A stretch of DNA of 60,822 bases from an uncultured Bacteroidota bacterium. GTDB taxonomy: Bacteria > Bacteroidota > Bacteroidia > 2-12-FULL-35-15. Every line of letters starts with the position of its first letter. The first letter of the stretch is position 1. The notes beneath the pieces were generated by a model. It ran no database searches. It had not been told where the DNA came from and saw only the letters and a list, made by a program, of their open reading frames with translations. The position numbers and the translations under genes were made by a program. The DNA lies in NCBI GenBank assembly GCA_903919535.1, contig CAIXIP010000081.1, positions 1-60,822 of the forward strand. The letters are read 5' to 3'. Below, piece by piece: positions 33,410-54,781 of the stretch.

Positions 33410-36400
33410 TTAGTTATTCAGCATCAATCTTAAGCTAACTCCGGCATTAGTGTTAGTGGAAGGGAATGATGATGAAATAACAGGTTTGTTAATGATGCGA
33501 TCATAAAATACACGAATATTGATACGTTCGCTAATCACATAATCTGCCGCTACTTTTATCGAAATAATATTTGTTCCGCCAGTTGATTGACTTACACCTT
33601 CAACAATTCGTCTCATAACTGTTTCATTTTTACGGAATGAAAGATCAAGTTTCAAATTCAGATCGCTTTTGATTTGTTTTCCTTTTATTGTTATTTTTTT
33701 ACCCATTGATAAATTCTTTATGCGGTATCCGGTTCCACCAATTATCTCCCGACCAACCACTTCTGTAACTGTTCGGCTAGTCAAACCAAGGGACAAGTTT
33801 CTATCCTTTTTGTATTCAAAAGTTAATAAAATACTGTTATTTAAAGTCATATCCAGTTTTATCAAAGGGCTCCACTGTTCTGAAATGGTAATTGTGTTAA
33901 TAGCGTTTTGAGATAAAAAATTAGGGTTGCCGGTAATACTTGAAACTGTTTCCTTTATTGCAGTAAATCCATCTTTATTTCCATTTGCATCTTCGTCAAT
34001 AAATAAAAGATTTGACTGGTATCCTCCAACACTGTATGTCGAACGGTAAGCATGACTCAACGTAAATGATTTGAAATATTTTTTTATTGCCTCAATTTTT
34101 GATAATCCATCATAAGTTGCTCTCCAGTTTGGTAACGGAATTTTCGGGAAGGCACTTAAGGTTGAGTTGTTTGTATTCTTCCCTGCATAAGCTGCTAAGA
34201 ATGCTGGAATCAATACATCTTGTGATGTGGCGTTATATCCGTCTGCAAAACCGTTAATAGATCCGTTTGAATTCGGATTTTTTGCACCTAATCGAGCAGA
34301 AATATTAGCCCTGTCATCTAAAAATGTTTGAAATGTTTTCTCTCTATCTTTTACAAAAGAGGTGCGAAACGCCATATACGACATGCTAAAATTACCAGTT
34401 GTGATTGGTGATTGTCCTTTAAAATGATCAACTACGGAACCGTCTCTCAGTGTGTCATTTAGTGTCCATCTAAAAAATTCGCTATTGTTTTTTGCTTCAG
34501 TTCGGGTTGCCGTTAATTCAATTTTAAGATCAGGCAAAGGTTCTAAATTTGCACGGATATTCAAGTTGTTACTACTTGTTGTTGCATAGGGAGTATTTAC
34601 GGAAGGTGTTTTTACTAACCAGTCGTTATTTGGATTATTATCTTCTGTAGTTGCGATTGCTTGATCACGGATATCTTTTTGGCTACCAAAAATAAAACCA
34701 GCTGTTGGCCCTTGAAAATTACTTCCCATTCCCATTAAATGCGTTGATTGAGCATAACCAGGTAATATGGTTCCATTTGTCATGGAGTAGGTTGCAGTAA
34801 CATTTTTCGCGCTCATCAATATGCGGGCAAGGTATTCAAGTACCACGTAATTGTTTTCTTTTTCCTTTTTTGTAGTATCTTTTTGATTTTTAGGAGCAGA
34901 GTTTTTTAATGCTGTAATAGATTTTCCTGTTTTTGTGTTTTGCTGATTTTTATTGCTGCTTTTTTGATTTATTTTTTTCAAATAAGGTACTTTATTATAT
35001 AAGGTCACCATATTTAACTGTCCGTTCAATTGTATGTTACGTGAATTTTGAATCGTATTTCCCAATGTGTCGGCTCCCATCGGAGCTCTCTGCCAGCTGT
35101 AAGTGCCAGAGTAACGAACAGAAGCCGTTGTGAAGTCAAGCAATGGCAATTTATTAATAGGAATATTGTAATTAATATTTACCTGATGATTGTATTGAGT
35201 TGTGTTTCCCAGTTTCAGTAAATTGTTTTGAATTGTATCTTTCTTTTCTTTGGTATCAATTAAACCGGCTGGTTCTAAGATGCGGTTTTCGTTATTTGCA
35301 GTAAAATCGAGCTTTAATGATTTGGTGATATCATATTTAAAATCATAAGAACGATTCATACTAAAATGTTTATTGTAGGTAGGAACAATAAGCATATCAC
35401 CACCTGTAGTGTTCCTGTTTTTTGTTTCGCTGAAATCTCTTGCTACGTCTGTCGAAAAGCCTAATTTATTTGGCAATAAATAAAAGTTAACATCCTTAAT
35501 TAATTGTAAATATTTTGATTGGAAAATTTTTGTTTTTGCGAACGGTTTATAGTTTTTCGGTGTTGGTGCAAAATTATACATCAAGCCGCCATGATGATTT
35601 TTTTGATTGGCGTATTCAAGAGTCGAATTATGATGATTTAACTCACTGTATGAATATGATGCAGCCCAATTTTCCACGTCATAAACATGGCTCTTTTTCG
35701 AGTTTTTTCCTTTGTCTTTTTTTACATTCGTAAAATTGATGCTATTCCGTTTTGTATAATCCTGTGTCACTTGTTTTAATGAATCTCTTACATGTTTAGG
35801 AATAGTAGGGTCTTTTAATGTCGGAGCTAAAAGAATATCCGGATCAAGAGGATTGTATTGTGGTGTGATCAATTGTTCTGAGTAGCCAATATACATTGGA
35901 ACGTGAATGTTAGATTCCTTAGGTAAAAACTTTCCTAATTCTAAACTTGATGAAATGTCATATTGTTTTCCTGTTTCTTTTTTTCGTTCTGTGATTTTAT
36001 TTTCAATGCTACCAAAACCTGGAGTATACATACTTCCTGATACAGAAAGTGTTCCTAAATCTGCTAATTTTGCAGTTACTCGTGCATTTGCTGCCCATCC
36101 GCCTTTTTCATCGAAATCACTTAAACGTAATTCGTTTACCCAAATCTGAGCACATTTTGGTAACCCGTCATCATCAAGTCCTGGGCCCATCTTTTTAGGG
36201 TTTTTAATCCCAATCATGATAGTTTTGATAGCACTTAAATTAGGATTTCCTTTTACAACAATAGTTCTGCTGTCGTCCGAAACCTCATATTCAGAGGCAA
36301 GTGTTACACCTGATCCATTGAAAATATCAATGTTTCGTTTTTGTTTTGCATTTTGTAATTTTTCAAACTCCAATATCATTTCATTAGCTAATGGCCATAC

Positions 36401-39400
36401 TTTATATTGGTCGTCAAGGTTGCTACCATTGTAATTTCCGGGTGCTGTAATTTGTAAGGGAATTTCATATTCGTAATAGTTATCTGTATAATCAGTTCCT
36501 AAACGAATAAAAAGTTTTAGGTCATTATTGTTTAATATTTCATTCACATTTGCTGATGCTTCAGCATGAACATACATTTTTAATTTTTTATATGAGCGAA
36601 CATCCAGACTAGTGTTTTTATATGCTGCGCGAGATTTACCATCTTCTAAATTACAAACAGTGAGCGACATTGCTTGTTCATTCATTTGAATTAAATTAGC
36701 AGATGCAGCGTTAATCTCCCGTTCAATATTTGGCGGTAAAACATAATTGACAGGTTGTTTACTGCCGTTTTCTTCAATGTTTACTGCTGATATATCGAAT
36801 TGAGTATTCGCATCATCATTAGGAATATATAATCCTGGCTCTAAAAGGTCAAAACCGTATTTACGCCATTCGCCACGCACCAATTCAAGTTTAGCAAAAC
36901 GCAAAATAATTGGCTTGTCAACATTTTTATAAAACATCCGGATAAAGCGTATCGATTGAAAATTTTCGATTGGACCCACTTTTGATTCTGGTGTTTTTAA
37001 AGGAATTTTAAACTGATACCAGGTGATTGGTTTTGAGGTTCCATCCTTAATATTTTGACCTGTAGTGTGAAAAACATCAGTGATATAATTGCTTCCAACG
37101 CCACCTGCAAAATCACTTGGTTTTAATCCGATGTGATATTGAAAATAACTCTCAACAGTACTTAAATTGTTATCGTGGTTGATATCTTCAGTGTTCGGAA
37201 TAGTAGTAGATGAAGTAGGGTAATTTCCCGAAGTAATAGGGGAATTACCTTCCATGCCATTATACTTTTTATAACGTTCCAGTGTTTTTACTCCAGCAGC
37301 ATCGTAATCACTTCCTCTGAAATAATGAAAGTCGTCAGCGGAAGGGTCTCCGTTAATATTTGCAAAGACATTAGGAGTAACTATAAGTTGAGCTTTTGCT
37401 AAAAAACTATTGAAATAACTTTGTTCACCACCTAAATTTAATCCATCTAATCCAATATCTTGAGAGGGTCTATCATTTGGGTCACTGTTAAATGCATTTA
37501 CTAATGATTGTGTTGTAGGAATTAAACCCCAAACGGTACTGTCTACAGGAAGATTAAGGCCGTTGTTTTGTGCTTGTGTACTTGGCGCTGGTAAAACATT
37601 TTCAGCGCTTTTATATGAATCACGCAATACGTCTTCAGAAATATTTCCAACATTAAAATATAAATCACCGGTCGAATTCCAGTTTCCTGCCGGATTGTCA
37701 CTATTGAAAGGATCCATCACCCAGAATTGAATATATTCAATGTTTGCAGCTTCAAAATCGTTTGTTTGAACGGATCGAGTGACACCACCCCAGCGGGTTT
37801 CCGGATTCTTTAACGAACCATCAGTTTCTAAACCGGAAGAAATAACTGTAGGGTTTGAATCATAATTGTATGGACCGCGTTCATTTGGATAATACGCCAA
37901 ATCAAGTGTTGCAAGCGGAGTTACCTGCCCACTTTGAGAAGGTTTATTCGGGAAAACTTCAGTTTCAGGGATTTCACGTGCAAAATTGTTTGACATATCT
38001 GCATTGGAAATATTGCCCGGAGTTAAACCAGATGTTTGTCTTAAGAATAAAGGATCAATCACATACCATGCTAATTTTGCGCGGTTAAAACCATACGCTA
38101 AACTGTTTGATGAATCTCCTTCAGGAAACATACTTGGTTGTCCTTGTGGTGTGCTTGCAAGATTCCATGCTGCCTGTGATTTAAGATCAATGGTAGATTG
38201 GCTGCCTTCAAAATCATCAAGATAAGAATTTCCGCTTTTTCCAATTGCTTTGCTGTGACCGGGAATAAGATATGCAAATTCTCCAGCTGCAGTAATTGTA
38301 CTCATTTCCTTAGTTTCGATAAGCGGGATTTTATCTATCCATCGAGTAAGGAAAGGCGCTTCGGTTCTATAATTTCCATCTAATCCCCAAATAGTATTGG
38401 AAATAGGCTCATCCCCAATGTTTACTTTTTTGGTCATTGGACGCTCCGTAAGGTTCATGATGGTTCCGCCAATATTGAAATCTTTATTGATCTTATAATC
38501 AAAATGAGCAGCTGTCAAACGTTTTGTTTGGATTGCAAAAAGTGAATTACTTTCAGTAGAGATCTTGATAGGAGTTCCTGAATTTAAAATCCCTTCATTA
38601 ATAATTTTTACCCGCCCCAAAGCATAATCTACGGTATAATCAACGTTTTCGGTCAGCTGAACTCCTCCCGCAGAAACGGTTACAGAGCCTTGAGGTACAT
38701 TGGGCGCACCTAACGAAATTTCTGAACCTGAAGCTGATTTATATGTTCCTTTTAATTTATAACGATTCACTTGCGGGAACATTTGAGCGGATGTTCGGGT
38801 GGAATCATATAATTGTTGAAATACATATTTATTCGCTTCTGTTGGAGAACAAAGAGGGTCGAATTTTACAAACAGGTCGCTTCCAAAAGGTTCAATAACA
38901 GGAAAAATAACACGTCCGTTATTCGCATTAATGGTAACACCATCAATAAAATCGAAAACCCCATCTGGAGTATGATCCATCTGTTGGTTCAACTTATCCA
39001 AACTAACAACTTGAATTAAAGGTTTTGATATAATTAAATTTTGACAAGAGGTGACCGGTAAATAATTAATATCAGTTCCAGTTTGTGAATTGGTGTATAA
39101 TATATCTAATTTAAAATCTTGTGGATTAATTTGGTAAGCCCCAATTGAATAAATATTTTTCATCATCAAGTCCCACATCGGATGCTTGGTGTTATTAGCA
39201 GAGCTCTTCAGCATCTTTGTATACATTACCTGATTTGTTGCAATGCCACCGTCAGAAAACTCACCTACATTATAGGTGTTCCCATTATAGGTATATTGAT
39301 AAGCAACAGAAAGAACCTGATCTGGATTTAATGTTTGATTCAATGAAATAAAGCCAAGTTTTGAATTCAAGGTATATTCTGAAGGTTGTAATTTTCTGGC

Positions 39401-40753
39401 ATTAAATTTTTCGAAATTAATTTGCTCCTTCATTGTGCTTCCTGAAATTGATTTTATCGTGGAAACACTTGTATTAGGTGTTCTTACAGATGCATTGTTT
39501 TTGATATGGAGATATAGGTCATTTTGATCATTGAATGGCAACGCACCTGCTGTAGCATCCAAAATATAACTCTGGTCAGCAGGTACATGTATTGCATCTT
39601 CTGCAAGTTCTGAAAAGCCAACCATATCACGGGTGTCAGTTGTTGAATTGTTGCTGTTTGAGATCCAGACTTCTATTCTACTGATGTTGATTCCTGAATT
39701 TACAAAAGGCAAATTTGCTAATGCCGAATTATATTGATCACGGAAATACTGCCCAAGAAAAAAATGTTTATTTGCTTCGTATGCATCACCTGCTACTTCA
39801 AAATTACTTACTTGTGCACCCCCCGTAACTTCAACTTCAGATTTTTTCCCTTTTTGTTGTGAAAATAAACTGGTAACAGTCAACCTGCCAAATTGCAATT
39901 GTGTTTTTATTCCAAACAATGTTTGACTACCGGTAATCAATGAACCAGTCAAAGGCATACTCACATTTCCTGCTTCAATTTTTTTGATGATCTCATCTTC
40001 ATAGCCGGTGTACTCCAATTTCATTTGATTTTCAAAATCAAATGTTGCTTCGGTATTATAGCTGGTTGTAAGTTTTAATTTGTCTCCGATTTTTCCAACA
40101 ACATTTAATTGAATTTTTTCGTTAAAATCGAATGTGTTTACTTTACGCTGTTTTAAAGGTAGAGCAGGGTTGTCAGTTTTTGTTCCGTTGTAAGCAAAAA
40201 TTAATTCGGCAGAACCATTCGGTCGAATATCAACTGTATTGCCGCCAAAAATTCGATCAAAAATTTCTCCACCAACATGTAATTTTGGAATAATTGCATT
40301 GCTCTGATTGTTTTGTGATTCGGCATGTGAGCGGGCATTCCAATAATTTTTAACTTGTTTCCTAAACATGTAGTCCTGATATTCCTGACTATCCATATAA
40401 GTTTCCGGGCGATAATTAATTCCACCCATGTGTTGACTTATTTCATAGTTTCCTGTAGTAGGGTCGTATTGAACATCAGTAGCAATGTTAGAAGGGTTAT
40501 TTAACATCAAACCACCTGAATTAGGATAGTTTAATGGGTCACCTGTGGATTGATCTTGAAAATTATAAGGAAGAGTAATGGGTGTTATTTCTTCATCTGT
40601 TTTAGGAGTATCGATAGCAACAAGTGCACGATCTGCTTCCACTTCTTTAGCGAAATTATAGGAACTTATTTTTGCATCAGAATTAATAATGATGCTTAGT
40701 AAGACTGAAGAAACAGCGCCAACAAAAAGATATTTTGAAAATGATCTAGCCAA
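33410..40753 (-). CDS. sprA: Cell-surface protein SprA, T9SS translocon
   Basis: 2447 residues, the usual giant size (about 2,400). Signal/anchor segment YLFVGAVSSVLLSIIINSDA at the N-terminus. SprA/SOV is the very large outer-membrane barrel through which T9SS substrates cross; it is also needed for gliding in flavobacteria. Family hallmarks include GGEIFDRIFGGNTVDIRPNGSAEL, the repeated barrel-like strands, long soluble loops (AQIWVNELRLSDFDEKGGWAANARV, near residue 1535) and the C-terminal SITGNPNFLSQNA ... FDRIINKPVISSSFPSTN block. It lies 17 bases after ruvA. Together with the sorting-domain proteins in this window it shows a functional T9SS. Confidence 0.97.
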   Translation of the reverse strand: MARSFSKYLFVGAVSSVLLSIIINSDAKISSYNFAKEVEADRALVAIDTPKTDEEITPITLPYNFQDQSTGDPLNYPNSGGLMLNNPSNIATDVQYDPTTGNYEISQHMGGINYRPETYMDSQEYQDYMFRKQVKNYWNARSHAESQNNQSNAIIPKLHVGGEIFDRIFGGNTVDIRPNGSAELIFAYNGTKTDNPALPLKQRKVNTFDFNEKIQLNVVGKIGDKLKLTTSYNTEATFDFENQMKLEYTGYEDEIIKKIEAGNVSMPLTGSLITGSQTLFGIKTQLQFGRLTVTSLFSQQKGKKSEVEVTGGAQVSNFEVAGDAYEANKHFFLGQYFRDQYNSALANLPFVNSGINISRIEVWISNSNNSTTDTRDMVGFSELAEDAIHVPADQSYILDATAGALPFNDQNDLYLHIKNNASVRTPNTSVSTIKSISGSTMKEQINFEKFNARKLQPSEYTLNSKLGFISLNQTLNPDQVLSVAYQYTYNGNTYNVGEFSDGGIATNQVMYTKMLKSSANNTKHPMWDLMMKNIYSIGAYQINPQDFKLDILYTNSQTGTDINYLPVTSCQNLIISKPLIQVVSLDKLNQQMDHTPDGVFDFIDGVTINANNGRVIFPVIEPFGSDLFVKFDPLCSPTEANKYVFQQLYDSTRTSAQMFPQVNRYKLKGTYKSASGSEISLGAPNVPQGSVTVSAGGVQLTENVDYTVDYALGRVKIINEGILNSGTPIKISTESNSLFAIQTKRLTAAHFDYKINKDFNIGGTIMNLTERPMTKKVNIGDEPISNTIWGLDGNYRTEAPFLTRWIDKIPLIETKEMSTITAAGEFAYLIPGHSKAIGKSGNSYLDDFEGSQSTIDLKSQAAWNLASTPQGQPSMFPEGDSSNSLAYGFNRAKLAWYVIDPLFLRQTSGLTPGNISNADMSNNFAREIPETEVFPNKPSQSGQVTPLATLDLAYYPNERGPYNYDSNPTVISSGLETDGSLKNPETRWGGVTRSVQTNDFEAANIEYIQFWVMDPFNSDNPAGNWNSTGDLYFNVGNISEDVLRDSYKSAENVLPAPSTQAQNNGLNLPVDSTVWGLIPTTQSLVNAFNSDPNDRPSQDIGLDGLNLGGEQSYFNSFLAKAQLIVTPNVFANINGDPSADDFHYFRGSDYDAAGVKTLERYKKYNGMEGNSPITSGNYPTSSTTIPNTEDINHDNNLSTVESYFQYHIGLKPSDFAGGVGSNYITDVFHTTGQNIKDGTSKPITWYQFKIPLKTPESKVGPIENFQSIRFIRMFYKNVDKPIILRFAKLELVRGEWRKYGFDLLEPGLYIPNDDANTQFDISAVNIEENGSKQPVNYVLPPNIEREINAASANLIQMNEQAMSLTVCNLEDGKSRAAYKNTSLDVRSYKKLKMYVHAEASANVNEILNNNDLKLFIRLGTDYTDNYYEYEIPLQITAPGNYNGSNLDDQYKVWPLANEMILEFEKLQNAKQKRNIDIFNGSGVTLASEYEVSDDSRTIVVKGNPNLSAIKTIMIGIKNPKKMGPGLDDDGLPKCAQIWVNELRLSDFDEKGGWAANARVTAKLADLGTLSVSGSMYTPGFGSIENKITERKKETGKQYDISSSLELGKFLPKESNIHVPMYIGYSEQLITPQYNPLDPDILLAPTLKDPTIPKHVRDSLKQVTQDYTKRNSINFTNVKKDKGKNSKKSHVYDVENWAASYSYSELNHHNSTLEYANQKNHHGGLMYNFAPTPKNYKPFAKTKIFQSKYLQLIKDVNFYLLPNKLGFSTDVARDFSETKNRNTTGGDMLIVPTYNKHFSMNRSYDFKYDITKSLKLDFTANNENRILEPAGLIDTKEKKDTIQNNLLKLGNTTQYNHQVNINYNIPINKLPLLDFTTASVRYSGTYSWQRAPMGADTLGNTIQNSRNIQLNGQLNMVTLYNKVPYLKKINQKSSNKNQQNTKTGKSITALKNSAPKNQKDTTKKEKENNYVVLEYLARILMSAKNVTATYSMTNGTILPGYAQSTHLMGMGSNFQGPTAGFIFGSQKDIRDQAIATTEDNNPNNDWLVKTPSVNTPYATTSSNNLNIRANLEPLPDLKIELTATRTEAKNNSEFFRWTLNDTLRDGSVVDHFKGQSPITTGNFSMSYMAFRTSFVKDREKTFQTFLDDRANISARLGAKNPNSNGSINGFADGYNATSQDVLIPAFLAAYAGKNTNNSTLSAFPKIPLPNWRATYDGLSKIEAIKKYFKSFTLSHAYRSTYSVGGYQSNLLFIDEDANGNKDGFTAIKETVSSITGNPNFLSQNAINTITISEQWSPLIKLDMTLNNSILLTFEYKKDRNLSLGLTSRTVTEVVGREIIGGTGYRIKNLSMGKKITIKGKQIKSDLNLKLDLSFRKNETVMRRIVEGVSQSTGGTNIISIKVAADYVISERINIRVFYDRIINKPVISSSFPSTNTNAGVSLRLMLNN

Positions 40754-40770
40754 AATTTATAAAAACTATT

Positions 40771-41358
40771 TTAAAGATTCTTAAGTGCTGATTTAATAAG
40801 TTGTTCCACTGTTTGACCTGTTCCCTCTGTTCTGATAATTTTATCGAGCGCTTTATCTGCCGTTAATTTATTGAATCCTAACATCACAAGTGCAGATAAC
40901 GCTTCTTCTTTCAAAGTATTGTTTGCCGTGCTAAAAAAATCGGAGGCTATTTCGCCTTTTCCCATTTTGTCTTTCAAATCGACAATAATACGCTGTGCAG
41001 TTTTTTCACCAATGCCTTTTACACTTTTAATAAGTGCAACATTGCCAGTTACTATTGCATTTTGAATTTCAATAGCGCTTAATGACGAAAGCATTAATAA
41101 AGCACTTGTTCCGCCAACTCCTGATACCGAAACTAAGTGGCGGAATAAATTACGTTCAGCAATATCTGCAAAACCAAAAAAACGAGGCATGTCGTCCCTC
41201 ACATACATTTGTTCGGTAAACAACTTGCATTTTTCTGTCTCACCAATTTTAGAAAAGGTGTTTAATGAGATTTGCATTACGTATCCGACTCCCGCAACAT
41301 CAATAACGGCATACGTTGGTGTTTTTTCAACTAACTTTCCTTCAATATGATAGATCAT
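40771..41358 (-). CDS. ruvA: Holliday junction DNA helicase subunit RuvA
   Basis: 195 residues, normal length. It binds the four-way junction and recruits RuvB. The N-terminal OB-fold (IYHIEGKLVEKTPTYAVIDVAGVGYVMQI) is followed by two helix-hairpin-helix motifs (FRHLVSVSGVGGTSALLMLS and LIKSVKGIGEKTAQRIIVDLK) and the C-terminal RuvB-binding domain (EALSALVMLGF). It is immediately upstream of sprA and downstream of maeB, a common Bacteroidota order. Confidence 0.97.
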   Translation of the reverse strand: MIYHIEGKLVEKTPTYAVIDVAGVGYVMQISLNTFSKIGETEKCKLFTEQMYVRDDMPRFFGFADIAERNLFRHLVSVSGVGGTSALLMLSSLSAIEIQNAIVTGNVALIKSVKGIGEKTAQRIIVDLKDKMGKGEIASDFFSTANNTLKEEALSALVMLGFNKLTADKALDKIIRTEGTGQTVEQLIKSALKNL

Positions 41359-41441: not shown

Positions 41442-43709
41442 TTATTTTTTTGCTTGTGCTCCAAGAACAGCAATGGTGATCATATTTACAATCTCCCTTA
41501 CCGAACTTCCTAATTGAAGAATGTGAACAGGTTTTTTTAATCCGATCACAATTGGTCCGATTGCTTCAGCACCGCCCATTTCCTGAATTAGTTTATAAGC
41601 GATATTTCCTGATGCAAGATTAGGGAATATCAAAGTGTTGACTTTTTTATCCACTATATCTGAAAAAGGAAATTGTTCTTTTAATAACTCATTATTCAAG
41701 GCAAAGTTTGCTTGCATCTCCCCATCCACAATCATTCCCGGATAATTTTTATGGAGAATCTCTACAGCTTCTCTCATTTTATTTGGCACTTCTCCTTCAG
41801 CAGATCCAAAATTAGAGTAGGATAATAATGCTATGCGAGGAGTAATATTAAATTGTTTTACGCTATTTGCAGTAAGAACAGTAATGTCTACTAATTCCTG
41901 TGCTGTAGGATTTACATTCATTGTAGTATCAGCAAAAAAGAATGGTCCTTGCTTAGTGTTTAGAATATACATCCCGGCTACTTTAGAAACGCCATCCTGA
42001 ACTCCGATTATTTGCAATGCAGTGCGAATTGGGTCGCTATATTGACGTGTAAGGCCAGAGATCATTGCATCAGCAGCTCCGGTTTCTACCATCATGGCAC
42101 CAAAATGATTTCTCTCACGCATTATTTTGCGTGCTTCATAGAGTGTATGGCCTTTACGTTGACGTTTTTTGAAGAAAATATCTCCAAAAGAATTTCTCCT
42201 GTCATCCTCGCTTTTACTACGTGGATCAATGATTGGAATATCATGTAGATCAAGGTTGTTGTCAGCGATAAGTTTTTTAATTTTTTCTACATCACCTAGT
42301 AATATTGGTTTTGCAATGCCTTCGTCTGCTACTTGCTGAGCAGCTTTTAAAATTTTATAATGATCCGCTTCAGCGAAAACAACACGTTTTGGATTTTGTT
42401 TTGCTTTATTGGTAATGTTTCTAATGAGTTTGTTATCAAGCCCCAGCCTGTTAATTAACTCTTGAGTATAAGCTTCCCAATTGGTGATTTTATTTTGTGC
42501 CACACCTGAGTCAATTGCAGCTTTCGCAACAGCGGGAGCAACAGTGTAAATTAAGCGAGGGTCAATTGGTTTTGGAATAATATATTCTGGTCCGAATGTA
42601 ATATTTTTCGAGTCGTATGCTAGGTTAACTGTTTCTGGAACAGTTTCTTTTGCAAGATTTGCAATGGCATAAACAGCAGCCAACTTCATTTCCTCATTAA
42701 TTTGAGTTGCCCTAACATCTAATGCTCCACGAAAAATAAATGGAAATCCAAGTACATTGTTTACTTGATTAGGATGGTCGCTTCTTCCTGTTGCCATGAT
42801 GATATCTTTTCGAGCTTCCATTGCTTCAAGATAAGGAATTTCAGGATCGGGATTAGCCAAAGCAAAAACAATAGGATTTTTTGCCATTGATTGAACCATT
42901 TTTTGGCTTACGATATTTCCTTTTGAAAGTCCGATAAATACATCAGCATCTATCATCGCATCTTCTAATGTTACAGCTTTAGATTTTGAGGCGAAAAACT
43001 TTTTCATTCCATCCAAATCTTTACGGTCAACACTTAAAACACCTTTGCTATCAAGCATTAGAATGTTTTCCTTTTTAGCACCTACTGCAATGTATAGTTT
43101 AGCGCAAGAAACAGCAGCAGCACCTGCACCATTAACAACAATTTTTACATTCTCTATTTTTTTATCTGCTATCTCACATGCATTTAGAAGAGCAGCAGAG
43201 GATATGATTGCTGTTCCATGCTGATCGTCATGCATCAATGGGATATTTAATTCCTCTTTTAATCTTCTTTCTATTTCAAAACATTCTGGAGCCTTAATAT
43301 CTTCAAGGTTGATTCCACCAAAAGTAGGTGCAATAGCTTTTACAGTGCTGATAAACAATTCAATATCTTTTGCATCTACTTCAATGTCAAATACATCTAT
43401 ATCAGCAAAGATTTTGAAAAGTAATCCTTTTCCTTCCATTACTGGTTTTGAAGCCAATGGTCCAATATCGCCTAAGCCTAAAACAGCTGTTCCATTTGAT
43501 ATTACAGCTACTAAATTTCCTTTTGCCGTGTATTTATAAACATCTTCAGGGTTTTTTTCAATTTCCAAACAAGGTTCAGCAACACCTGGTGAATAGGCTA
43601 ATGATAAATCGCGCTGTGAACTATGCGGTTTTGTTGGGATTACTTCAATCTTTCCTGGTCTGCCTTGTGAATGATAATCCAAGGCTTCTTGCTTTCTGAA
43701 TTTTGCCAT
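41442..43709 (-). CDS. maeB: NADP-dependent malic enzyme with C-terminal phosphotransacetylase-like domain
   Basis: 755 residues, normal for MaeB. The malic N-terminal domain (SLAYSPGVAEPCLEI, the Lys region AKGNLVAVISNGTAVLGLGD, PLMHDDQHGTAII metal site) is followed by the Rossmann domain (IVVNGAGAAAVSCAKL) and, from about residue 430, a phosphotransacetylase-type domain (RVVFAEADHYKILKAAQ ... GNIAYKLIQEMGGAEAIGPIVIGL) that usually acts as an allosteric acetyl-CoA sensor. It makes pyruvate, CO2 and NADPH from malate. It is 83 bases upstream of ruvA. Confidence 0.96.
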   Translation of the reverse strand: MAKFRKQEALDYHSQGRPGKIEVIPTKPHSSQRDLSLAYSPGVAEPCLEIEKNPEDVYKYTAKGNLVAVISNGTAVLGLGDIGPLASKPVMEGKGLLFKIFADIDVFDIEVDAKDIELFISTVKAIAPTFGGINLEDIKAPECFEIERRLKEELNIPLMHDDQHGTAIISSAALLNACEIADKKIENVKIVVNGAGAAAVSCAKLYIAVGAKKENILMLDSKGVLSVDRKDLDGMKKFFASKSKAVTLEDAMIDADVFIGLSKGNIVSQKMVQSMAKNPIVFALANPDPEIPYLEAMEARKDIIMATGRSDHPNQVNNVLGFPFIFRGALDVRATQINEEMKLAAVYAIANLAKETVPETVNLAYDSKNITFGPEYIIPKPIDPRLIYTVAPAVAKAAIDSGVAQNKITNWEAYTQELINRLGLDNKLIRNITNKAKQNPKRVVFAEADHYKILKAAQQVADEGIAKPILLGDVEKIKKLIADNNLDLHDIPIIDPRSKSEDDRRNSFGDIFFKKRQRKGHTLYEARKIMRERNHFGAMMVETGAADAMISGLTRQYSDPIRTALQIIGVQDGVSKVAGMYILNTKQGPFFFADTTMNVNPTAQELVDITVLTANSVKQFNITPRIALLSYSNFGSAEGEVPNKMREAVEILHKNYPGMIVDGEMQANFALNNELLKEQFPFSDIVDKKVNTLIFPNLASGNIAYKLIQEMGGAEAIGPIVIGLKKPVHILQLGSSVREIVNMITIAVLGAQAKK

Positions 43710-45894: not shown

Positions 45895-46638
45895 TTACTT
45901 CGAGCTAATTACAAGTTTTCTAGTAGATATTGTTTTTCCATCTATTAAAAAAGAATAGAAATAGATACCAGAATTTAAATCAGTGACATTTATTTTTGCT
46001 GTGCCTTGTTTATCAATTAATTCAACTTCTTTTACTGTTTTTCCTAACATGTCATAAAATGTGATTTTCCCGTTTTGTGCAAATTCGTTCAAAATATATT
46101 TGATTGAAACGGTTGAATTTGAAGGGTTAGGATACGCAGTAGAAATTACTCCACTCGCTTTTGCAATATCATTTATTCCGTTAGAACATGAATAATGAAC
46201 TGTTACTGTAGCTGTATCTTGCGCAAAGTATGTTTGATATTTAACATAGGTATCGCAGCAAGATTGACCAACATCAAAATGTGCAACGAGACCTTGAGCT
46301 CCTATTAAATTTGTCATGCCTGCAAGGGTAGTGCCAACACCTGGCTCATCATAAACTGTATTGGTACTTGGAGCATAACAAGATGCACCTGCACAAAAAT
46401 AAACATCACAGCCATTACCTAAAGGCGGGTTTAATACAGTTCTGCGAATGTGATATGTTACAGCAGAAGATGTAATATTGTGAATATCAATATCGTTTTC
46501 GAATAGAGCATTTGAAGTTATATTTACAATAAGGGTATCATTGGTGATGTCTATACCGCCATTATATAGGCGTAAACTTTGCCCAAAACTATATGTTGCT
46601 GCTGAAATTATAATAAGAGTTGTAAGAATTTTTTTCAT
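45895..46638 (-). CDS. Small T9SS type A secreted protein
   Basis: About 247 residues from ATG 46638 (MKKILTTLIIISAATYSFGQ signal peptide); the longer frame from 46686 adds 16 residues ahead of the signal and is unlikely. The N-terminal domain (LYNGGIDITNDTLIVNI ... AVTYHIRRTVLNPPLGNGCDVYFCAGASCYAP) is cysteine-bearing and Ig-like. The C-terminus (AYPNPSNSTVSIKYILN ... KITFYDMLGKTVKEVELI ... LNSGIYFYSFLIDG) is a complete type A sorting domain. Similar small proteins are common T9SS exports; the function is unknown. A TAAATTTG box lies at 46684-46691. Confidence 0.85.
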   Translation of the reverse strand: MKKILTTLIIISAATYSFGQSLRLYNGGIDITNDTLIVNITSNALFENDIDIHNITSSAVTYHIRRTVLNPPLGNGCDVYFCAGASCYAPSTNTVYDEPGVGTTLAGMTNLIGAQGLVAHFDVGQSCCDTYVKYQTYFAQDTATVTVHYSCSNGINDIAKASGVISTAYPNPSNSTVSIKYILNEFAQNGKITFYDMLGKTVKEVELIDKQGTAKINVTDLNSGIYFYSFLIDGKTISTRKLVISSK

Positions 46639-46760
46639 GTTATTATATTTAAAGGTTTTGTGATATTTTTTATAGCTATACTCCAAATTTACAATATTGT
46701 TTCACTGCATTTTATTTTTTTTGAAAGATTCTTAGTATTCGAACGATTAAACAAAGATGA

Positions 46761-48517: not shown

Positions 48518-50308
48518 ATGAAAAAAACAGTTACCTTATCAATTGCAGTTCTGTCAGCATTAGCGGCTAGTGCTCAATTACCTGTAAGTACGACACCTCA
48601 AAACAAAAAGGCTCTTATTGAAGAGTTTACTGGAATTCATTGTACATATTGCCCTGATGGTCATAAAATATCAGCGCAAATTCTTGCTGCTAATCCAGGT
48701 AATGCATTTGCAGTGAATGTTCACACAGGAAGCTACGCAACTCCAAGTGGAGCTGAATTAGATTTTAGAACAACTGAAGGTGACGCAATTGCAGCAATTT
48801 CTACAATGGGTATCACAGGTTATCCAACAGGCGATGTAAATCGTCATATCTTTACTGGTACAACATTGACAATGAGTCGTGCTGATTGGGCAACTTCAGT
48901 TGCTACAATATTAGGGCAAAGTGCCTATGTGAACATTGCAGGTGAAGCAGTACTTGATGTAAATACAAATCTTTTGACTATTAATATTCAAGCATATTAC
49001 ACTGCTAATAGCCCACAGGCGTCAAACAAACTTACTGTAATGTTAATACAAGATAATATCAACGGTACTCAGACTGGTGCTGCATCATTTAATCCAACTA
49101 TGATTAATCCTGATGGAACTTATCGCCACATGCATGCATTGCGTAAGGTTATTTCTGCAACTACAGGTGATGCAATTTCACCAACAACTGCAGGAACAAC
49201 TATTAACAAAACATATACTTATACTGTTCCGGCAATAATTAAGAATATTCCGGTTGATGTTTCTAATCTTGAATTAATTGCTTTTGTTGGGGAATCAACA
49301 AATGCTGAAATTATTAACGTTGGAAAACTTCCAATAACTTATACTGGAATTACTACAACAAACAATGCAGCAGCAAGCTCACTAAGTGTTGAGAACAATG
49401 TTTGTCAAAGTTCAACTATACCAACTTTTATATTAAAAAATAAAGGTTCTGCTACTATGACAAGTGCTTCAATAAGCTATTCTGTTAATGGTGGAACAGC
49501 GCAAGTATACAACTGGACTGGTTCATTAACTTCGTTGGGTTCAACAACAGTAACTTTGCCTGTTATTAACTTTACATTAAACCCAACAAATACAGTAAAT
49601 CTTTCAGTTCTAACAGTAAATGGTATTGCTGATCAAGATGCAACAGATAATGCTGCAACTGCAACATTTATTGAAACAACAACTTTGGTTACAACTAATT
49701 CGATTACAATTGATGTAACTCAAGATCAATACGGTACAGAAACAACATGGAAGCTTTTTGATGCTTCTGGTTCAATAATCGCTAGTGGTGGACCATACGC
49801 AGATTTAGCTGCTTCTGGAGTTCTATTGCATACATCTACTGCTACATTGCCTATTGATGGATGTTATCGCTTCGAAATATATGATGTTTATGGTGATGGA
49901 ATTAATTCTGGTTATGGTGCAGGAAAAGTAGAATTGAAAAATGCATCTGGAACTATTTTTTATTCACTTGTTGGTACTGCAGCTAATTTTGGAAGTAAAG
50001 GAGTGCGTAACTTTAAAAAAGGTCCACTTTCAATTAGCGAAAACGAACTTGTTAATAATGTGAATGTTTATCCAAATCCAATATCAACGAATGCAACTGT
50101 TAACTTCAATTTAGTTGAATCAAACAATGTTGTTATTGAAGTGGTAAATGCAATCGGACAATTAGTTTCAACAAATAACTTAGGTAAATTAAGTATTGGT
50201 GAACAAAATTATTCAATAGATGCTTCTAACCTAAACAATGGTTTATATTTCATAAACATTCGTGTAGGAGACAAAAGTGTTGTTAGAAAAGTTTCTATCA
50301 GTAAATAG
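48518..50308 (+). CDS. Omp28-family secreted protein with CxxC and T9SS type A sorting domain
   Basis: 596 residues. Signal peptide ending AASAQ (residue 20). The Omp28 thioredoxin-like domain opens with ALIEEFTGIHCTYCPDGHK (Cys42 and Cys45, a CxxC in the position of the thioredoxin active site) and continues with FAVNVHTGSYATP and YRHMHALRKV. Then come a beta-sandwich region (about 290-400), a repeat-like stretch with CYRFEIYDVYGDGINSGYGAGK, and a type A sorting domain (NVYPNPISTNATVNFNL ... GLYFINIRVGDKSVVRKVSI). It is the first gene of the 48.5-53.5 kb cluster. A role in extracytoplasmic thiol chemistry is inferred from the CxxC. Confidence 0.9.
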   Translation: MKKTVTLSIAVLSALAASAQLPVSTTPQNKKALIEEFTGIHCTYCPDGHKISAQILAANPGNAFAVNVHTGSYATPSGAELDFRTTEGDAIAAISTMGITGYPTGDVNRHIFTGTTLTMSRADWATSVATILGQSAYVNIAGEAVLDVNTNLLTINIQAYYTANSPQASNKLTVMLIQDNINGTQTGAASFNPTMINPDGTYRHMHALRKVISATTGDAISPTTAGTTINKTYTYTVPAIIKNIPVDVSNLELIAFVGESTNAEIINVGKLPITYTGITTTNNAAASSLSVENNVCQSSTIPTFILKNKGSATMTSASISYSVNGGTAQVYNWTGSLTSLGSTTVTLPVINFTLNPTNTVNLSVLTVNGIADQDATDNAATATFIETTTLVTTNSITIDVTQDQYGTETTWKLFDASGSIIASGGPYADLAASGVLLHTSTATLPIDGCYRFEIYDVYGDGINSGYGAGKVELKNASGTIFYSLVGTAANFGSKGVRNFKKGPLSISENELVNNVNVYPNPISTNATVNFNLVESNNVVIEVVNAIGQLVSTNNLGKLSIGEQNYSIDASNLNNGLYFINIRVGDKSVVRKVSISK

Positions 50309-50321
50309 ATCTGTTCTTTGA

Positions 50322-50378
50322 AAATAAATCAGCAGTTTGGCTTGTTGTTTGACAAATCACTGCTGATTTATTTTTTTT
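50322..50378 (+). terminator. Intrinsic terminator inside the thiol cassette
   Basis: A perfect 15-bp stem (50322-50336 with 50359-50373), 22-base loop, followed by a T run. It lies between the Omp28/T9SS gene and the TlpA gene. With no clear new promoter after it, it probably lets part of the transcription through. Confidence 0.8.
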
Positions 50379-50400
50379 AACTAATTTTAAAAAACATTTT

Positions 50401-50922
50401 ATGAAAAAAATAGTACTGGGTTTATTCATAATTGGAGCATTAGCTTCCGCAACAATCATCCAAAATTCAGAAGGACGGTCCATTCCTGCTGCAGATGTAA
50501 AAACGCTTGATGGAAAAACTATTAATACTTCCAAATTTTCGAATGACGGTAAGCCGATGATCATTGATTTTTGGGCTACCTGGTGTAAGCCATGTAAAAA
50601 AGAATTAGATGCTATCTCAGAAGTATATGGTGAATGGCAAAAAGAAACGGGTGTGAAATTAATTGCAATTTCAATTGATGATTCACGTAGCTCCGGTAGG
50701 GTTTCTGCTGACGCAAAAACACATGGCTGGGAATATGAAGTTTATCTTGACGAGAATCAAGATTTTAAACGCGCCCTTAATGTTGGCGACATTCCTCAGG
50801 TATTTATCATTAACGGAAAAGGCGAAATTGTTTGGCAACACAACGGATATGTTGATGGTGGAGAAGAGCATATTTTCGAGATCCTGAAAAAGGTTGTTAA
50901 AGGAGAAAAAATAACTGAATAA
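50401..50922 (+). CDS. TlpA-family thiol-disulfide protein
   Basis: 173 residues with a signal peptide or N-terminal anchor (MKKIVLGLFIIGALASATII). It is a thioredoxin-fold protein with the active site FWATWCKPCKKELD (Cys62 and Cys65) and cis-Pro segment VGDIPQVFIINGKGEIVWQHNG. TlpA/ResA-like proteins reduce specific disulfides in the periplasm. The neighbouring Omp28 proteins with CxxC and a barrel with a Cys pair are natural candidate partners. It sits 19 bases before the DUF6029-like gene. Confidence 0.93.
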   Translation: MKKIVLGLFIIGALASATIIQNSEGRSIPAADVKTLDGKTINTSKFSNDGKPMIIDFWATWCKPCKKELDAISEVYGEWQKETGVKLIAISIDDSRSSGRVSADAKTHGWEYEVYLDENQDFKRALNVGDIPQVFIINGKGEIVWQHNGYVDGGEEHIFEILKKVVKGEKITE

Positions 50923-50941
50923 TTAGAAAAATTTGCTCATT

Positions 50942-52609
50942 GTGAGAAAAAATAAATTAGGATTAATCAACGCATCTGCAATTTTATTTGCAGTATTCTA
51001 CAGCAACTTTTCAGTTGCACAATTAAATTTAAACACAATCAATAACCTTAATTTGGGTGAAGTGCATGGCAATTTTCAAGCTAATGCACAATATTATATT
51101 CCCGATTCAACGATTGGTGCTGCTGACGTTCCTGAAAAAATGTTGTTGAATGGCTTCGCAAATATTATTTATACGAAAGGGAAATTTACTGCTGGTATTC
51201 GATACGAAAGTTATTTAAATGCTTTGCAAGGATATCCTACGGGATATAAAGGAAACGGAATTCCTTATCGTTATGCAACCTATAAATCAGATGAGTTAGA
51301 GGTTACGGTTGGTAGCTTTTATGAGCAATTTGGAAATGGCTTAACATTGAGAAGTTATGAAGAACGAAATTTAGGATTAGATAACGCACTTGATGGAGCA
51401 AGATTAAAATATCAACCATTTAAAGGTGTTTATTTAAAAGCATTGGTAGGTAAACAACGTACTTACTTCACTACTGCCGGTTTAGTTCGCGGCTTTGATG
51501 GAGAAATTCAAATCAATGAAGCTTTTGCGAAACTAAAAGATAAAAAAACAGTTGTAACCTTGGGTGGAAGTTTTGTAAGTAAATTTCAAACGGATGCAGA
51601 TCCAACCTTGGTATTACCACAAAATGTTGGAAATTCAGCTGGAAGATTTGAAATCACAAGAAATAATTTCAGAATTAACGGAGAATACGCATACAAAATT
51701 AACGACCCTTCTTCTGATAATAATTTTATTTATAAATATGGTGATGCAGCGCTTTTGCAAGCAAGTTATGCTATGAAAGGATTTGCATTGTCTGTAAGCG
51801 GGTCTCGTATTGATAATATGAGTTATCGTTCAGACCGAACAGCTCAAATAACTAATTTGTTGATTAATTATATTCCCGCTTTACCAAAACAGCATACGTA
51901 TTGCTTATTGGCATTTTATCCATATGCTTCGCAATCTAAAGGGGAAATGGAGTTTTCAAGTGAGATAAAATATAAAATTAAAAAAGGGACTGCATTAGGC
52001 GGTGCTTATGGAACAGAGATCACCGTGAATTATTCGGGTGCTAATAGCCTTGATACAACTCAAATAAAAGGAACAGATACAAAACATTTAGGGTATTCAT
52101 CCAATTATTTAGGTGTAGGAAAAGAAATTTACTTCCGAGATCTTTACATTGAAATATCAAAAAAGATAAACAAAACCTGGAAAGGAACATTGGTTTATTC
52201 TAATCAGATCTATAACAAATCCATTATTCAAAAACCCGGTTCGCCAACAATTTATTCCAACATAATAATTGCTGATATTACTTATAAATTAAAAGCTACA
52301 AGTTCATTGCGATTGGAATTACAAAATTTACAAACTAAGCAGGATCATCAGGATTGGGCTTATGCTCTTTTAGAATATACTATCAATGAAAATTGGTTTA
52401 TTGCGGCAGGCGATCTATACAATTATGGAAATGAAGAAAGTGCTAAGCGTTACCATTATTATATGGGTAATATCGGATATATGAAAAATACAAATCGTAT
52501 AACGTTAAGTTATGGTAAACAGCGTGAAGGCATATTTTGTGTTGGCGGAGTTTGCCGCAATGTACCTGCTTCAAATGGTATAACACTTTCAGTTTCCAGT
52601 AGTTTCTAA
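50942..52609 (+). CDS. DUF6029-like outer-membrane protein with a C-terminal Cys pair
   Basis: About 555 residues. No ATG is available: GTG 50942 gives MRKNKLGLINASAILFAVFYSNFSVAQ, a clean signal peptide; TTG 50933 would add three residues. The chain has the beta-barrel pattern of the DUF6029 family (LNLGEVHGNFQANAQYYIPDS, GFANIIYTKGKFTAGIRYESYL, VTVGSFYEQFGNGLTLRSYEERNLGLDNALDG) and ends KQREGIFCVGGVCRNVPAS ... SSSF, with two cysteines five apart (about residues 533 and 538). The function is unknown. The cysteines are notable because every neighbour in the cluster carries a CxxC. Confidence 0.85.
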   Translation: MRKNKLGLINASAILFAVFYSNFSVAQLNLNTINNLNLGEVHGNFQANAQYYIPDSTIGAADVPEKMLLNGFANIIYTKGKFTAGIRYESYLNALQGYPTGYKGNGIPYRYATYKSDELEVTVGSFYEQFGNGLTLRSYEERNLGLDNALDGARLKYQPFKGVYLKALVGKQRTYFTTAGLVRGFDGEIQINEAFAKLKDKKTVVTLGGSFVSKFQTDADPTLVLPQNVGNSAGRFEITRNNFRINGEYAYKINDPSSDNNFIYKYGDAALLQASYAMKGFALSVSGSRIDNMSYRSDRTAQITNLLINYIPALPKQHTYCLLAFYPYASQSKGEMEFSSEIKYKIKKGTALGGAYGTEITVNYSGANSLDTTQIKGTDTKHLGYSSNYLGVGKEIYFRDLYIEISKKINKTWKGTLVYSNQIYNKSIIQKPGSPTIYSNIIIADITYKLKATSSLRLELQNLQTKQDHQDWAYALLEYTINENWFIAAGDLYNYGNEESAKRYHYYMGNIGYMKNTNRITLSYGKQREGIFCVGGVCRNVPASNGITLSVSSSF

Positions 52610-52625
52610 TTTATAAAAATAGATA

Positions 52626-53522
52626 ATGAAAATTAAATTTATTTCAACTATCGTAATCGGATTCGCTTTATTGATATCATCATGTGATTTTGTATCTATT
52701 CCCGCACAGGGAACCGTTGGCCCAACCGGCCCAACTGGTGTGGTAGATAGTACAGTGCATCGTAAGGTCTTATTGGAAGATTATACCGGACATAAATGTA
52801 CTGCATGTCCTGCTGCTGCCATTACAGCAAATTCAATTGTATTAGCCAATCCCGAAAAAGTAATTGTTATTGGAGTTCATGCAGGTTTTTTTGCTAATGC
52901 AATGACAACAGGAACACAATACTTGACAGATTTTAAAACTGCAGCAGGAACTGCTTATGATACCTATTTTGGAATTTCTGCAGTTGCAAATCCGAATGGA
53001 TTAATAAACAGAAAAGATTATACTTCTAGTACAACAAACCATATTAAATCTCCAGGAACTTGGGCTACCGAAGTTGCAATAGAATTAGCAAAACCACCAT
53101 TGGCAAAACTGGAAATTGTAAATAGCTACAATTCAGGACCCCGGGTTTTAACCTGCAATGTAAATTCTACTTTTTTGCAGGATACATTAACTGGAGGGCC
53201 ATACAAACTTATAGTTTCAGTGCTACAGGATTCTATCATAGCCGATCAACTTGATGCTGGTGTGTATGTGCCAGCATATGTTCACAGACATGTGTTGAGA
53301 GATAATATCAACGGTACCTGGGGCGATAATTTAGTAAACGCAGGGTCAATTATTACAAATTCTGTAATCAATAAAAATTACAATTATACTTTTCCTGCAA
53401 CGTATCCAGCTGCTGGTGCTAGCTCAACAAGTTGCGATGTAAATCATTGTTACATTGTTGCATATATTTATAATGATGTTACTAAAGAGGTAATTCAAGT
53501 AGAGGAGAAGAAAATACAATAG
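52626..53522 (+). CDS. Omp28-family lipoprotein with CxxC
   Basis: 298 residues. Lipoprotein signal MKIKFISTIVIGFALLISSC (Cys20). A short collagen-like linker (GTVGPTGPTG) is followed by the Omp28 domain: KVLLEDYTGHKCTACPAAA (Cys58 and Cys61), VIGVHAGFFANAM, LINRKDY and YVHRHVLRDNINGTWGD. It is the lipid-anchored counterpart of the larger Omp28 protein at the head of the cluster; shared features include 'E[ED][FY]TG.[HK]CT.CP' and 'R.MHALR / HRHVLR'. It starts 16 bases after the barrel gene and is followed by a terminator. Confidence 0.9.
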   Translation: MKIKFISTIVIGFALLISSCDFVSIPAQGTVGPTGPTGVVDSTVHRKVLLEDYTGHKCTACPAAAITANSIVLANPEKVIVIGVHAGFFANAMTTGTQYLTDFKTAAGTAYDTYFGISAVANPNGLINRKDYTSSTTNHIKSPGTWATEVAIELAKPPLAKLEIVNSYNSGPRVLTCNVNSTFLQDTLTGGPYKLIVSVLQDSIIADQLDAGVYVPAYVHRHVLRDNINGTWGDNLVNAGSIITNSVINKNYNYTFPATYPAAGASSTSCDVNHCYIVAYIYNDVTKEVIQVEEKKIQ

Positions 53523-53598: not shown

Positions 53599-54219
53599 AT
53601 GAGAAAATTAATTTTAATAGCTGTCATATTTTTATTTTTCGTTACCGGAATAAAGGCGCAACAGCGCTTTAAAGTAGGATTGAAAGCTGGGTTAAGCACA
53701 AGTCAGGTAGCAGGTGATACCTATAGCGGATATCACAAAGCAGGTTTTGATGGAGGAGGATTCGTTACCGGAAAGTTAAGCGAAAAGTGGAGCGCCCAAT
53801 TTGAAATAATTTATATTCAAAAAGGAAGCAAGCAAAATCAAAATCCTGAAAAGGGCATGTTTAATTTTTATTTTTTGCAACTAGATTATATTGAAGTGCC
53901 GGTGTTGTTTCAGTTTCATCAGAAAAAATTCACATTTGAAGCTGGTCCCGGATTTGGCTATCTGGTAAAGGAAAGGGAGTATAATGATTACGGAGAAATA
54001 ACAGGAGCTCGCCCTTTTTTTAAAACAGAAGCAAGTTTTAATTTAGGCATAAGTTATAAAATATATAAAAATTTGGGAATGAACTGGCGATATTGTAATT
54101 CATTTTTGGCAATTCGCAAACACGCTTCAGGTGCCAGCACATGGTATAATCCAGGACAAATAAATAATGTGTTGGCTTTTACATTAACATATCAATTTGG
54201 AAATAATGAATCAGAATAA
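53599..54219 (+). CDS. Porin-family / PorT-like outer-membrane beta-barrel protein
   Basis: 206 residues. Signal peptide MRKLILIAVIFLFFVTGIKAQ, then a classic 8-strand pattern: FKVGLKAGLSTSQVAG, AGFDGGGFVTGKLSEKWSAQFEIIYIQKGSK, LDYIEVPVLFQFHQKKFTFEAGPGFGYLV, EASFNLGISYKIYKNLGMNWRY and a final strand NNVLAFTLTYQFG with an aromatic near the end. This matches the 'PorT/outer membrane protein beta-barrel' family of Bacteroidota, but it is not specific enough to call it the T9SS component PorT. It overlaps the start of ubiX by 14 bases. Confidence 0.85.
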   Translation: MRKLILIAVIFLFFVTGIKAQQRFKVGLKAGLSTSQVAGDTYSGYHKAGFDGGGFVTGKLSEKWSAQFEIIYIQKGSKQNQNPEKGMFNFYFLQLDYIEVPVLFQFHQKKFTFEAGPGFGYLVKEREYNDYGEITGARPFFKTEASFNLGISYKIYKNLGMNWRYCNSFLAIRKHASGASTWYNPGQINNVLAFTLTYQFGNNESE

Positions 54220-54781
54220 ACATAAAGTTGTTGTAGCTATTACCGGAGCAAGTGGAGCGGTTTATGCAAAAGTGTTGCTTGATAAATTAAATGAATTACA
54301 CGAACAAATTGAAGCTGTTGGTGTTGTGATGAGTGACAATGCAAAAGATGTTTGGAAATTTGAACTTGGAAATTCTGATTATGAAAAATCGAAATTTAAA
54401 ATTTACACGAAAAATGATTTCTTTGCACCCTTCGCATCAGGTTCTTCTAAATACGATACTATGATTGTTTGCCCTTGTTCCATGGGTACATTGGCGCGTA
54501 TTGCAAGTGGTGTTTCAAATGACTTGACAACCCGTGCTGCTGATGTTATTTTAAAGGAAAGAAGAAAACTTATTTTAGTGACACGTGATACTCCTCTAAG
54601 TTTAATTCATATTAATAATATGAAAACAGTTACAGAGGCCGGTGGAATTATTTGTCCTGCAAGCCCTTCCTTTTATAGTAAACCACAAACAATCGAAATG
54701 CTTGCAGCTACTGTAATTGATCGTGTTCTTGACTTGTGTGGTTTTGATCAGAATTCGTTTAGATGGGGAGCCGAAAAATAA
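54206..54781 (+). CDS. ubiX: UbiX-family flavin prenyltransferase
   Basis: About 191 residues from ATG 54206; a TTG at 54197 is not needed. It makes prenylated FMN, the cofactor of UbiD-type decarboxylases. Motifs: VVAITGASGAVYAKVLLDKL (FMN-binding loop), MIVCPCSMGTLARIASGVSNDLTTRAADVILKERRKLILVTRDTPLS and NMKTVTEAGGIICPASPSFY. No ubiD is in the window. It overlaps the end of the barrel gene, so the two are co-transcribed. Confidence 0.94.
   Translation: MNQNKHKVVVAITGASGAVYAKVLLDKLNELHEQIEAVGVVMSDNAKDVWKFELGNSDYEKSKFKIYTKNDFFAPFASGSSKYDTMIVCPCSMGTLARIASGVSNDLTTRAADVILKERRKLILVTRDTPLSLIHINNMKTVTEAGGIICPASPSFYSKPQTIEMLAATVIDRVLDLCGFDQNSFRWGAEK

Follow-up and report, generated by a model that had tools for sequence, protein, structure and literature searches.

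Four neighbouring genes in the genome of an uncultured Bacteroidota bacterium raise the question of why two Omp28-family proteins, a TlpA-like thiol oxidoreductase and an outer-membrane beta-barrel of the family DUF6029 (PF19494) should be encoded side by side, three of the products with a CxxC motif and the barrel with a cysteine pair of its own. A first-pass annotation of the window (i.e., the whole 60,822-nucleotide stretch of DNA that was analysed) had proposed that they form an envelope thiol-redox cassette, and its description of the locus holds: the four ORFs are adjacent on the forward strand within 48518–53522, and their translations contain CTYC, CKPC and CTAC as well as the barrel's FCVGGVC. 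The first gene, omp28a (48518..50308, +; 596 aa), matches the Pfam families Omp28 (9e-23) and Por_Secre_tail (6e-13), carries its CxxC within GIHCTYC and ends in a type A C-terminal sorting domain for the type IX secretion system (T9SS). It is followed by tlpA (50401..50922, +; 173 aa), which belongs to the AhpC-TSA/Redoxin/thioredoxin families and whose product, with the motif WATWCKPC, is a predicted periplasmic TlpA/ResA-like thiol oxidoreductase; by the DUF6029 gene (50933..52609, +; 558 aa; 1.3e-181), modelled by AlphaFold2 as a barrel of about 24 strands (pLDDT 94); and by omp28b (52626..53522, +; 298 aa; Omp28 4e-22), a lipoprotein with the lipobox SSCD, CTAC at residues 58–61 and Pro123. 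The intergenic gaps measure 92 bases between omp28a and tlpA, 10 between tlpA and the barrel gene, and 16 between the barrel gene and omp28b. The placement signals read earlier—a T9SS tail on omp28a, a lipobox on omp28b and a barrel between them—are likewise present, by Pfam/NCBIfam and by sequence. On the 3′ side of the cassette (53599–54781, +) lie a small OMP beta-barrel (PF13568) and UbiX, found at 37/130 and 29/130 of the loci compared below, respectively; they are probably lineage-specific neighbours.

The DUF6029 match is full-length (605 bits against a cut-off of 27, profile positions 15–538 of 538), and the codons of the barrel's cysteine pair, C536 to C541 (CVGGVC), occupy 52538..52555 (+), within the short hairpin that precedes the last strand. 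The earlier proposal depended on conservation of this pair, which proved complete: both cysteines occur in 108/108 barrels of the first locus set whose C-terminus is intact and in 20/20 divergent ones (128/128 in total). They persist down to about 20% overall identity, the surrounding motif reading GIxCVGGVCRxVPAxNG in barrels close to that of the window and GGPACTSGICYEILDFEG in the lineage farthest from it. For 61 of 109 barrels they are the only cysteines in the protein, and the third cysteine of the window barrel is not conserved. The apparent loss of the pair in a single barrel (L019; G023:C49:13213-14930) belongs to a frameshifted fragment, in which DUF6029 is split by an apparent frameshift near the 3′ end and the match continues in another frame; this frameshift may be an assembly error.

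In the AlphaFold2 model, C536 and C541 sit on opposite arms of the short hairpin that joins the last two strands. In outer-membrane barrels the C-terminal strand is usually closed by a Phe on the periplasmic side; because the C-terminal Phe marks that side here, the cysteine hairpin is predicted to lie at the opposite, extracellular end of this strand, in agreement with modelled loops that average 14 residues on the hairpin side and 4 on the other. Such a position would make contact with a periplasmic TlpA non-trivial once the barrel is inserted. No sequence relative of the barrel was found in the PDB, and a fold search returned large barrels of several kinds (ushers, TonB receptors, one Mtr chain); as these matches are generic and have low TM-scores, we drew no function from them. 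DUF6029, a family to which no function is assigned, is treated in one paper of the literature searched, where it is proposed, speculatively, as a polysaccharide porin on the strength of a remote similarity to Wzi-like barrels (PMC9603273). The PDB search and the generic folds offer nothing in favour of such a porin, and no obvious polysaccharide-export genes occur among the recurrent neighbours of DUF6029 at 130 loci.

Conservation of the gene neighbourhood, a check that the first-pass annotation had named beforehand, was assessed at 110 DUF6029 loci (the window, 80 loci from named genomes and 29 from a phylum sample), and 20 further loci were added for the most divergent DUF6029 members, giving 130 in all. 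The neighbourhood is kept, and cultivable carriers of the cassette include Hymenobacter duratus and Salibacter halophilus. Directly upstream of DUF6029 and on the same strand, tlpA is found at 93/110 loci, with a divergent placement in about six more; Omp28 is directly downstream at 98/110; and the cassette's gene order is retained in about 100 of the 110 (two TlpA and eleven Omp28 neighbours within these counts were identified by tblastn). Over all 130 loci, a thioredoxin-family or T9SS neighbour stands beside DUF6029 at 129, the sole exception being L096, and the next commonest neighbour family reaches 37. At eleven loci an in-frame TGA selenoprotein was suspected of replacing the downstream Omp28, but direct translation yielded ordinary CxxC proteins; a TGA within the Omp28 match of genome G031 was similarly rejected as a Sec codon and is a normal stop.

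On NCBIfam scores, the cassette TlpA is a TlpA-superfamily member outside the known named subtypes, as its product falls below the cut-off of each of them (best ResA, 86.8 bits versus 170). A close form of this protein, defined at E 1e-20, was found in 46 of the 198 genomes sampled, and all 46 also carry DUF6029 (Fisher 1e-35, a value that ignores kinship, the counts being uncorrected for relatedness). Genomes that lack DUF6029 hold many other TlpA-like candidates, none of them as close as the cassette TlpA. Three genomes that have no tlpA beside DUF6029 retain the ortholog elsewhere, at 49–52% identity. TlpA and barrel distance matrices correlate (r = 0.89), though in this mirror-tree comparison values of 0.6–0.9 are also reached by unrelated genes from these loci. 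TlpA/ResA-type proteins usually reduce, and the clients of the known TlpA/ResA/CcmG proteins are cytochrome c, cytochrome oxidase or DsbC-like proteins in the periplasm; we know of none that is dedicated to an outer-membrane barrel. TlpA/ResA/CcmG reductases are fed by DsbD/CcdA, and the cassette TlpA belongs to the same superfamily, with ResA as its best, sub-cut-off NCBIfam match. Of the inner-membrane candidates sought in this genome, DsbD was found and VKOR was not.

The two Omp28 (PF11551) proteins of the window score 81 and 79 bits against a cut-off of 34.9 and are paralogs, 28% identical over 260 aa. Both have a CxxC followed by Pro and, later, a conserved PxGx[VI]NR at the expected thioredoxin cis-proline position. 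All 57 aligned sequences of the downstream Omp28 have the CxxC, whose cysteines account for two of only three invariant columns. The AlphaFold2 model of Omp28b (pLDDT 91) combines an N-terminal thioredoxin fold with a C-terminal beta domain: strands at 48–54 and 79–85 flank a first helix (61–74) that starts at the CxxC (58–61), and P123 is nearly invariant. Its best PDB fold match is HBP35 of Porphyromonas gingivalis (E 9e-11). With these features, the N-domain of Omp28b is a predicted thioredoxin-fold oxidoreductase. HBP35 is described as a surface-attached T9SS product with thioredoxin activity, which mutation of its two active-site cysteines abolishes; it was studied alone, in the context of heme utilisation, and the abstract of that study mentions no barrel or TlpA partner (PMC2907840). 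Both window proteins also share their Pfam family with P. gingivalis Omp28 (PDB 2r2c; NCBIfam NF033782; NF045500), and 2r2c, the only solved Omp28, covers the C-terminal domain without the CxxC thioredoxin domain. No Omp28 match exceeded the cut-off of the selenoprotein family NF045500 among the 198 genomes, and both window proteins are of the CxxC form. Across the same genomes Omp28 was found in 41, 38 of them with DUF6029. An Omp28-related trypsin-degradation protein of Paraprevotella was set aside as a precedent, having been modelled as WD40 plus Ig-like domains (PMC9477747). As to which side of the membrane the lipoprotein occupies, surface export (LES) would be signalled by K-(D/E)2, QA-(D/E)2, SDDDD or an SDDFE-like stretch after Cys+1. 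The window N-terminus, CDFVSIPAQ, has no LES-like signal, and among its homologs about two of six residues are acidic on average; Omp28b may face the periplasm or perhaps the outside.

Omp28 is missing after the barrel in a divergent family of 13 loci and in one relative. Its place is taken there by TlpA/Redoxin proteins, most of which have CPHC and one CPFC. Most of the 13 carry two such redoxins, a short one that has a lipobox and another that ends in a T9SS sorting tail (the domains were confirmed by Pfam in one representative, L114), while at two closer loci (L038, L053) a redoxin with a T9SS tail occupies the omp28a position. The appearance of another thioredoxin family in the same two placements speaks for selection on thiol chemistry at these sites. 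This family replacement and the relocated TlpA are stronger arguments than the genome counts, because they represent separate events. A distant DUF6029 lineage (L117–L120) offers a further observation: a TonB-dependent receptor with CAVC in its plug region adjoins the DUF6029/redoxin cluster in several loci.

The link to T9SS extends beyond the sorting tails. DUF6029 occurs in 56 of the 198 genomes, all 56 of which carry SprA, and in 0/44 genomes that lack SprA. Many T9SS genomes are without DUF6029 or the whole cassette, so the cassette is an accessory. A frequent fifth member is a small T9SS cargo with a CX3-4C pair and a sorting domain (FCAGASCYAP; 45895..46686, − in the window), upstream of the four genes and beyond the span given in the first-pass annotation. 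Proteins of this kind, about 240 aa long, accompany DUF6029 at more than 50 loci, as a rule upstream and in divergent orientation, and 55 of 57 homologs keep both cysteines, nearly the sole conserved feature outside the sorting domain. As the profile for this cargo drifted into TlpA/Omp28 after rounds of searching, only hits below 1e-20 and of at most 340 aa were counted. The cargo was not found in 20 of the 52 loci with enough upstream sequence, and it is a frequent, not a universal, member of the cassette. Both this protein and omp28a carry the C-terminal sorting domain (TIGR04183/PF18962) by which T9SS type A cargo was recognised. The window also contains, about 8 kb from the cassette, a complete sprA/sov for the T9SS outer-membrane translocon (33410..40753, −; TIGR04189, 2636 bits), with ruvA (40771–41358, −) and malic enzyme (41442–43709, −) lying between; we count sprA as genomic context, no part of the cassette. 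Near other copies of the cassette, sprA-like genes occur in 10 loci, ruvA in 15 and malic enzyme in 25, i.e., the block is partly shared by up to 25 loci. At 30470–31705 (−) a predicted sulfide:quinone reductase scores 645 bits, versus a cut-off of 525, against the NCBIfam model NF049943 (type III SQR, selenoprotein subtype).

As far as gene sequences can tell, these comparisons show a co-inherited core composed of one TlpA subfamily, a Cys-pair DUF6029 barrel and thioredoxin-fold partners bearing a lipobox or a T9SS tail. What the first-pass annotation envisaged is supported in part: a dedicated and T9SS-linked envelope thiol-redox system has synteny, phylogenetic profile and family replacement in its favour, whereas a transfer of electrons or disulfides across the outer membrane and an action of TlpA on the barrel are hypothetical, and the N-terminus of Omp28b does not fit the known signal for surface export. 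We infer redox activity, direction and clients for the system. The likeliest explanation, though evenly balanced for and against, is in our view that the cassette is a dedicated outer-membrane thiol–disulfide relay in T9SS-bearing Bacteroidota. In such a relay, the barrel hairpin (CxGG[VI]C) would switch between its dithiol and disulfide states on the extracellular face, and the T9SS-exported Omp28, perhaps with the Omp28 lipoprotein, or else the replacing redoxin pair, would exchange with it. These surface thioredoxin-like proteins would also exchange with surface clients, e.g., the small CX3-4C T9SS cargo. TlpA, presumably charged by a DsbD-type inner-membrane reductase, would feed the relay from the periplasmic side. 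It might operate inside the barrel, or else fix the redox state of the barrel, or of the exported partners, while these are still periplasmic. Against the relay, a soluble TlpA in the periplasm could not easily reach the hairpin at its predicted extracellular position, Omp28b would have to be exposed at the surface without a clear export signal, the cassette is absent from many T9SS genomes, and the invariant Cys pair could be purely structural.

A structural role for the pair is central to a maturation-only reading, in which the two cysteines form a cross-strand disulfide, TlpA and Omp28b are dedicated periplasmic folding factors, much as Dsb proteins serve LptD, and the function of the barrel itself is unrelated to thiols (e.g., polymer or solute transport). 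We think this unlikely. A barrel with two cysteines cannot mispair internally and needs no isomerase, so that a dedicated partner of a type that usually reduces favours redox cycling over isomerisation or simple maturation; the T9SS-exported Omp28a, the T9SS-tailed redoxin and the CX3-4C cargo would also be left unexplained, and the recurrent neighbours of DUF6029 include no obvious polysaccharide-export genes. What speaks for it is that a CX4C spanning a GG turn lends itself to a cross-strand disulfide, that TlpA resides in the periplasm, which Omp28b may face as well, and that DUF6029 was earlier proposed as a polysaccharide porin (PMC9603273).

The cassette might instead serve the quality control of T9SS cargo, with TlpA and the Omp28 proteins as a disulfide reductase or isomerase for Cys-containing cargo and the barrel as their anchor or docking site. 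Such a role would suit the confinement of DUF6029 to SprA genomes, the proximity of sprA to the cassette and the cargo with Cys pairs encoded alongside, and T9SS machinery in the phylum does use functional disulfides, from SprF/PorG to GldK (PMC12635249). Yet many T9SS genomes manage without the cassette, and cargo quality control by itself leaves the invariant barrel Cys pair unexplained; we consider this reading unlikely too. Finally, the genes might be unrelated in their biochemistry and held together by operon inheritance, as the housekeeping genes UbiX, SIR2, RuvA and malic enzyme likewise persist in part of the loci. Those neighbours, however, reach at most 37/130 loci against 129/130 for thioredoxin-family or T9SS genes, TlpA is kept even after relocation, and the Omp28 family has been swapped for an analogous one, all of which makes mere linkage a very remote prospect.

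How does a thiol–disulfide relay of this kind compare with known systems? The first-pass annotation had known of no described system of this composition, and the literature searched has no text describing these parts together: nothing links Omp28 with TlpA and Bacteroidetes, or TlpA with type IX secretion and disulfide. The gene families are known singly, and it is their combination that is undescribed in that literature. LptD is a barrel whose cysteines are handled by Dsb-type proteins (DsbA/DsbC), but it rearranges disulfides among four cysteines, whereas the cassette barrel has two and a TlpA-type partner. Functional outer-membrane protein disulfides were reported in 2025 for SprF/PorG–GldK in T9SS/gliding in the same phylum (PMC12635249); there, in contrast, the cysteines lie in periplasmic C-tails and form a link to GldK, and SprF and PorG are barrels other than DUF6029.

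The porin–cytochrome conduit MtrCAB, of which a chain appeared among the weak fold matches of the DUF6029 barrel, has a similar overall arrangement, with one carrier in the periplasm, a large barrel and another carrier outside. The cassette differs in having no hemes; its carriers would be thiols, and a path through the barrel is hypothetical. A relay taken to this extreme would be a trans-outer-membrane dithiol–disulfide conduit running from DsbD to TlpA, through or along the barrel by way of its Cys hairpin, and on to the surface thioredoxin-like proteins. We hold this to be possible but doubtful; if true, the conduit would be a T9SS-coupled, heme-free analogue of porin–cytochrome conduits and a new kind of system.

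On these data, DUF6029, one particular TlpA and Omp28 belong to a single system, which is amenable to knockout and assay and offers the two barrel cysteines as a residue-level target. The outer membrane and cell surface of T9SS-bearing Bacteroidota are thereby connected with thiol chemistry, in a setting that has seen little study of surface redox control, and the make-up of the cassette suggests that these bacteria may handle thiols or electrons at the cell surface in a way not previously described.
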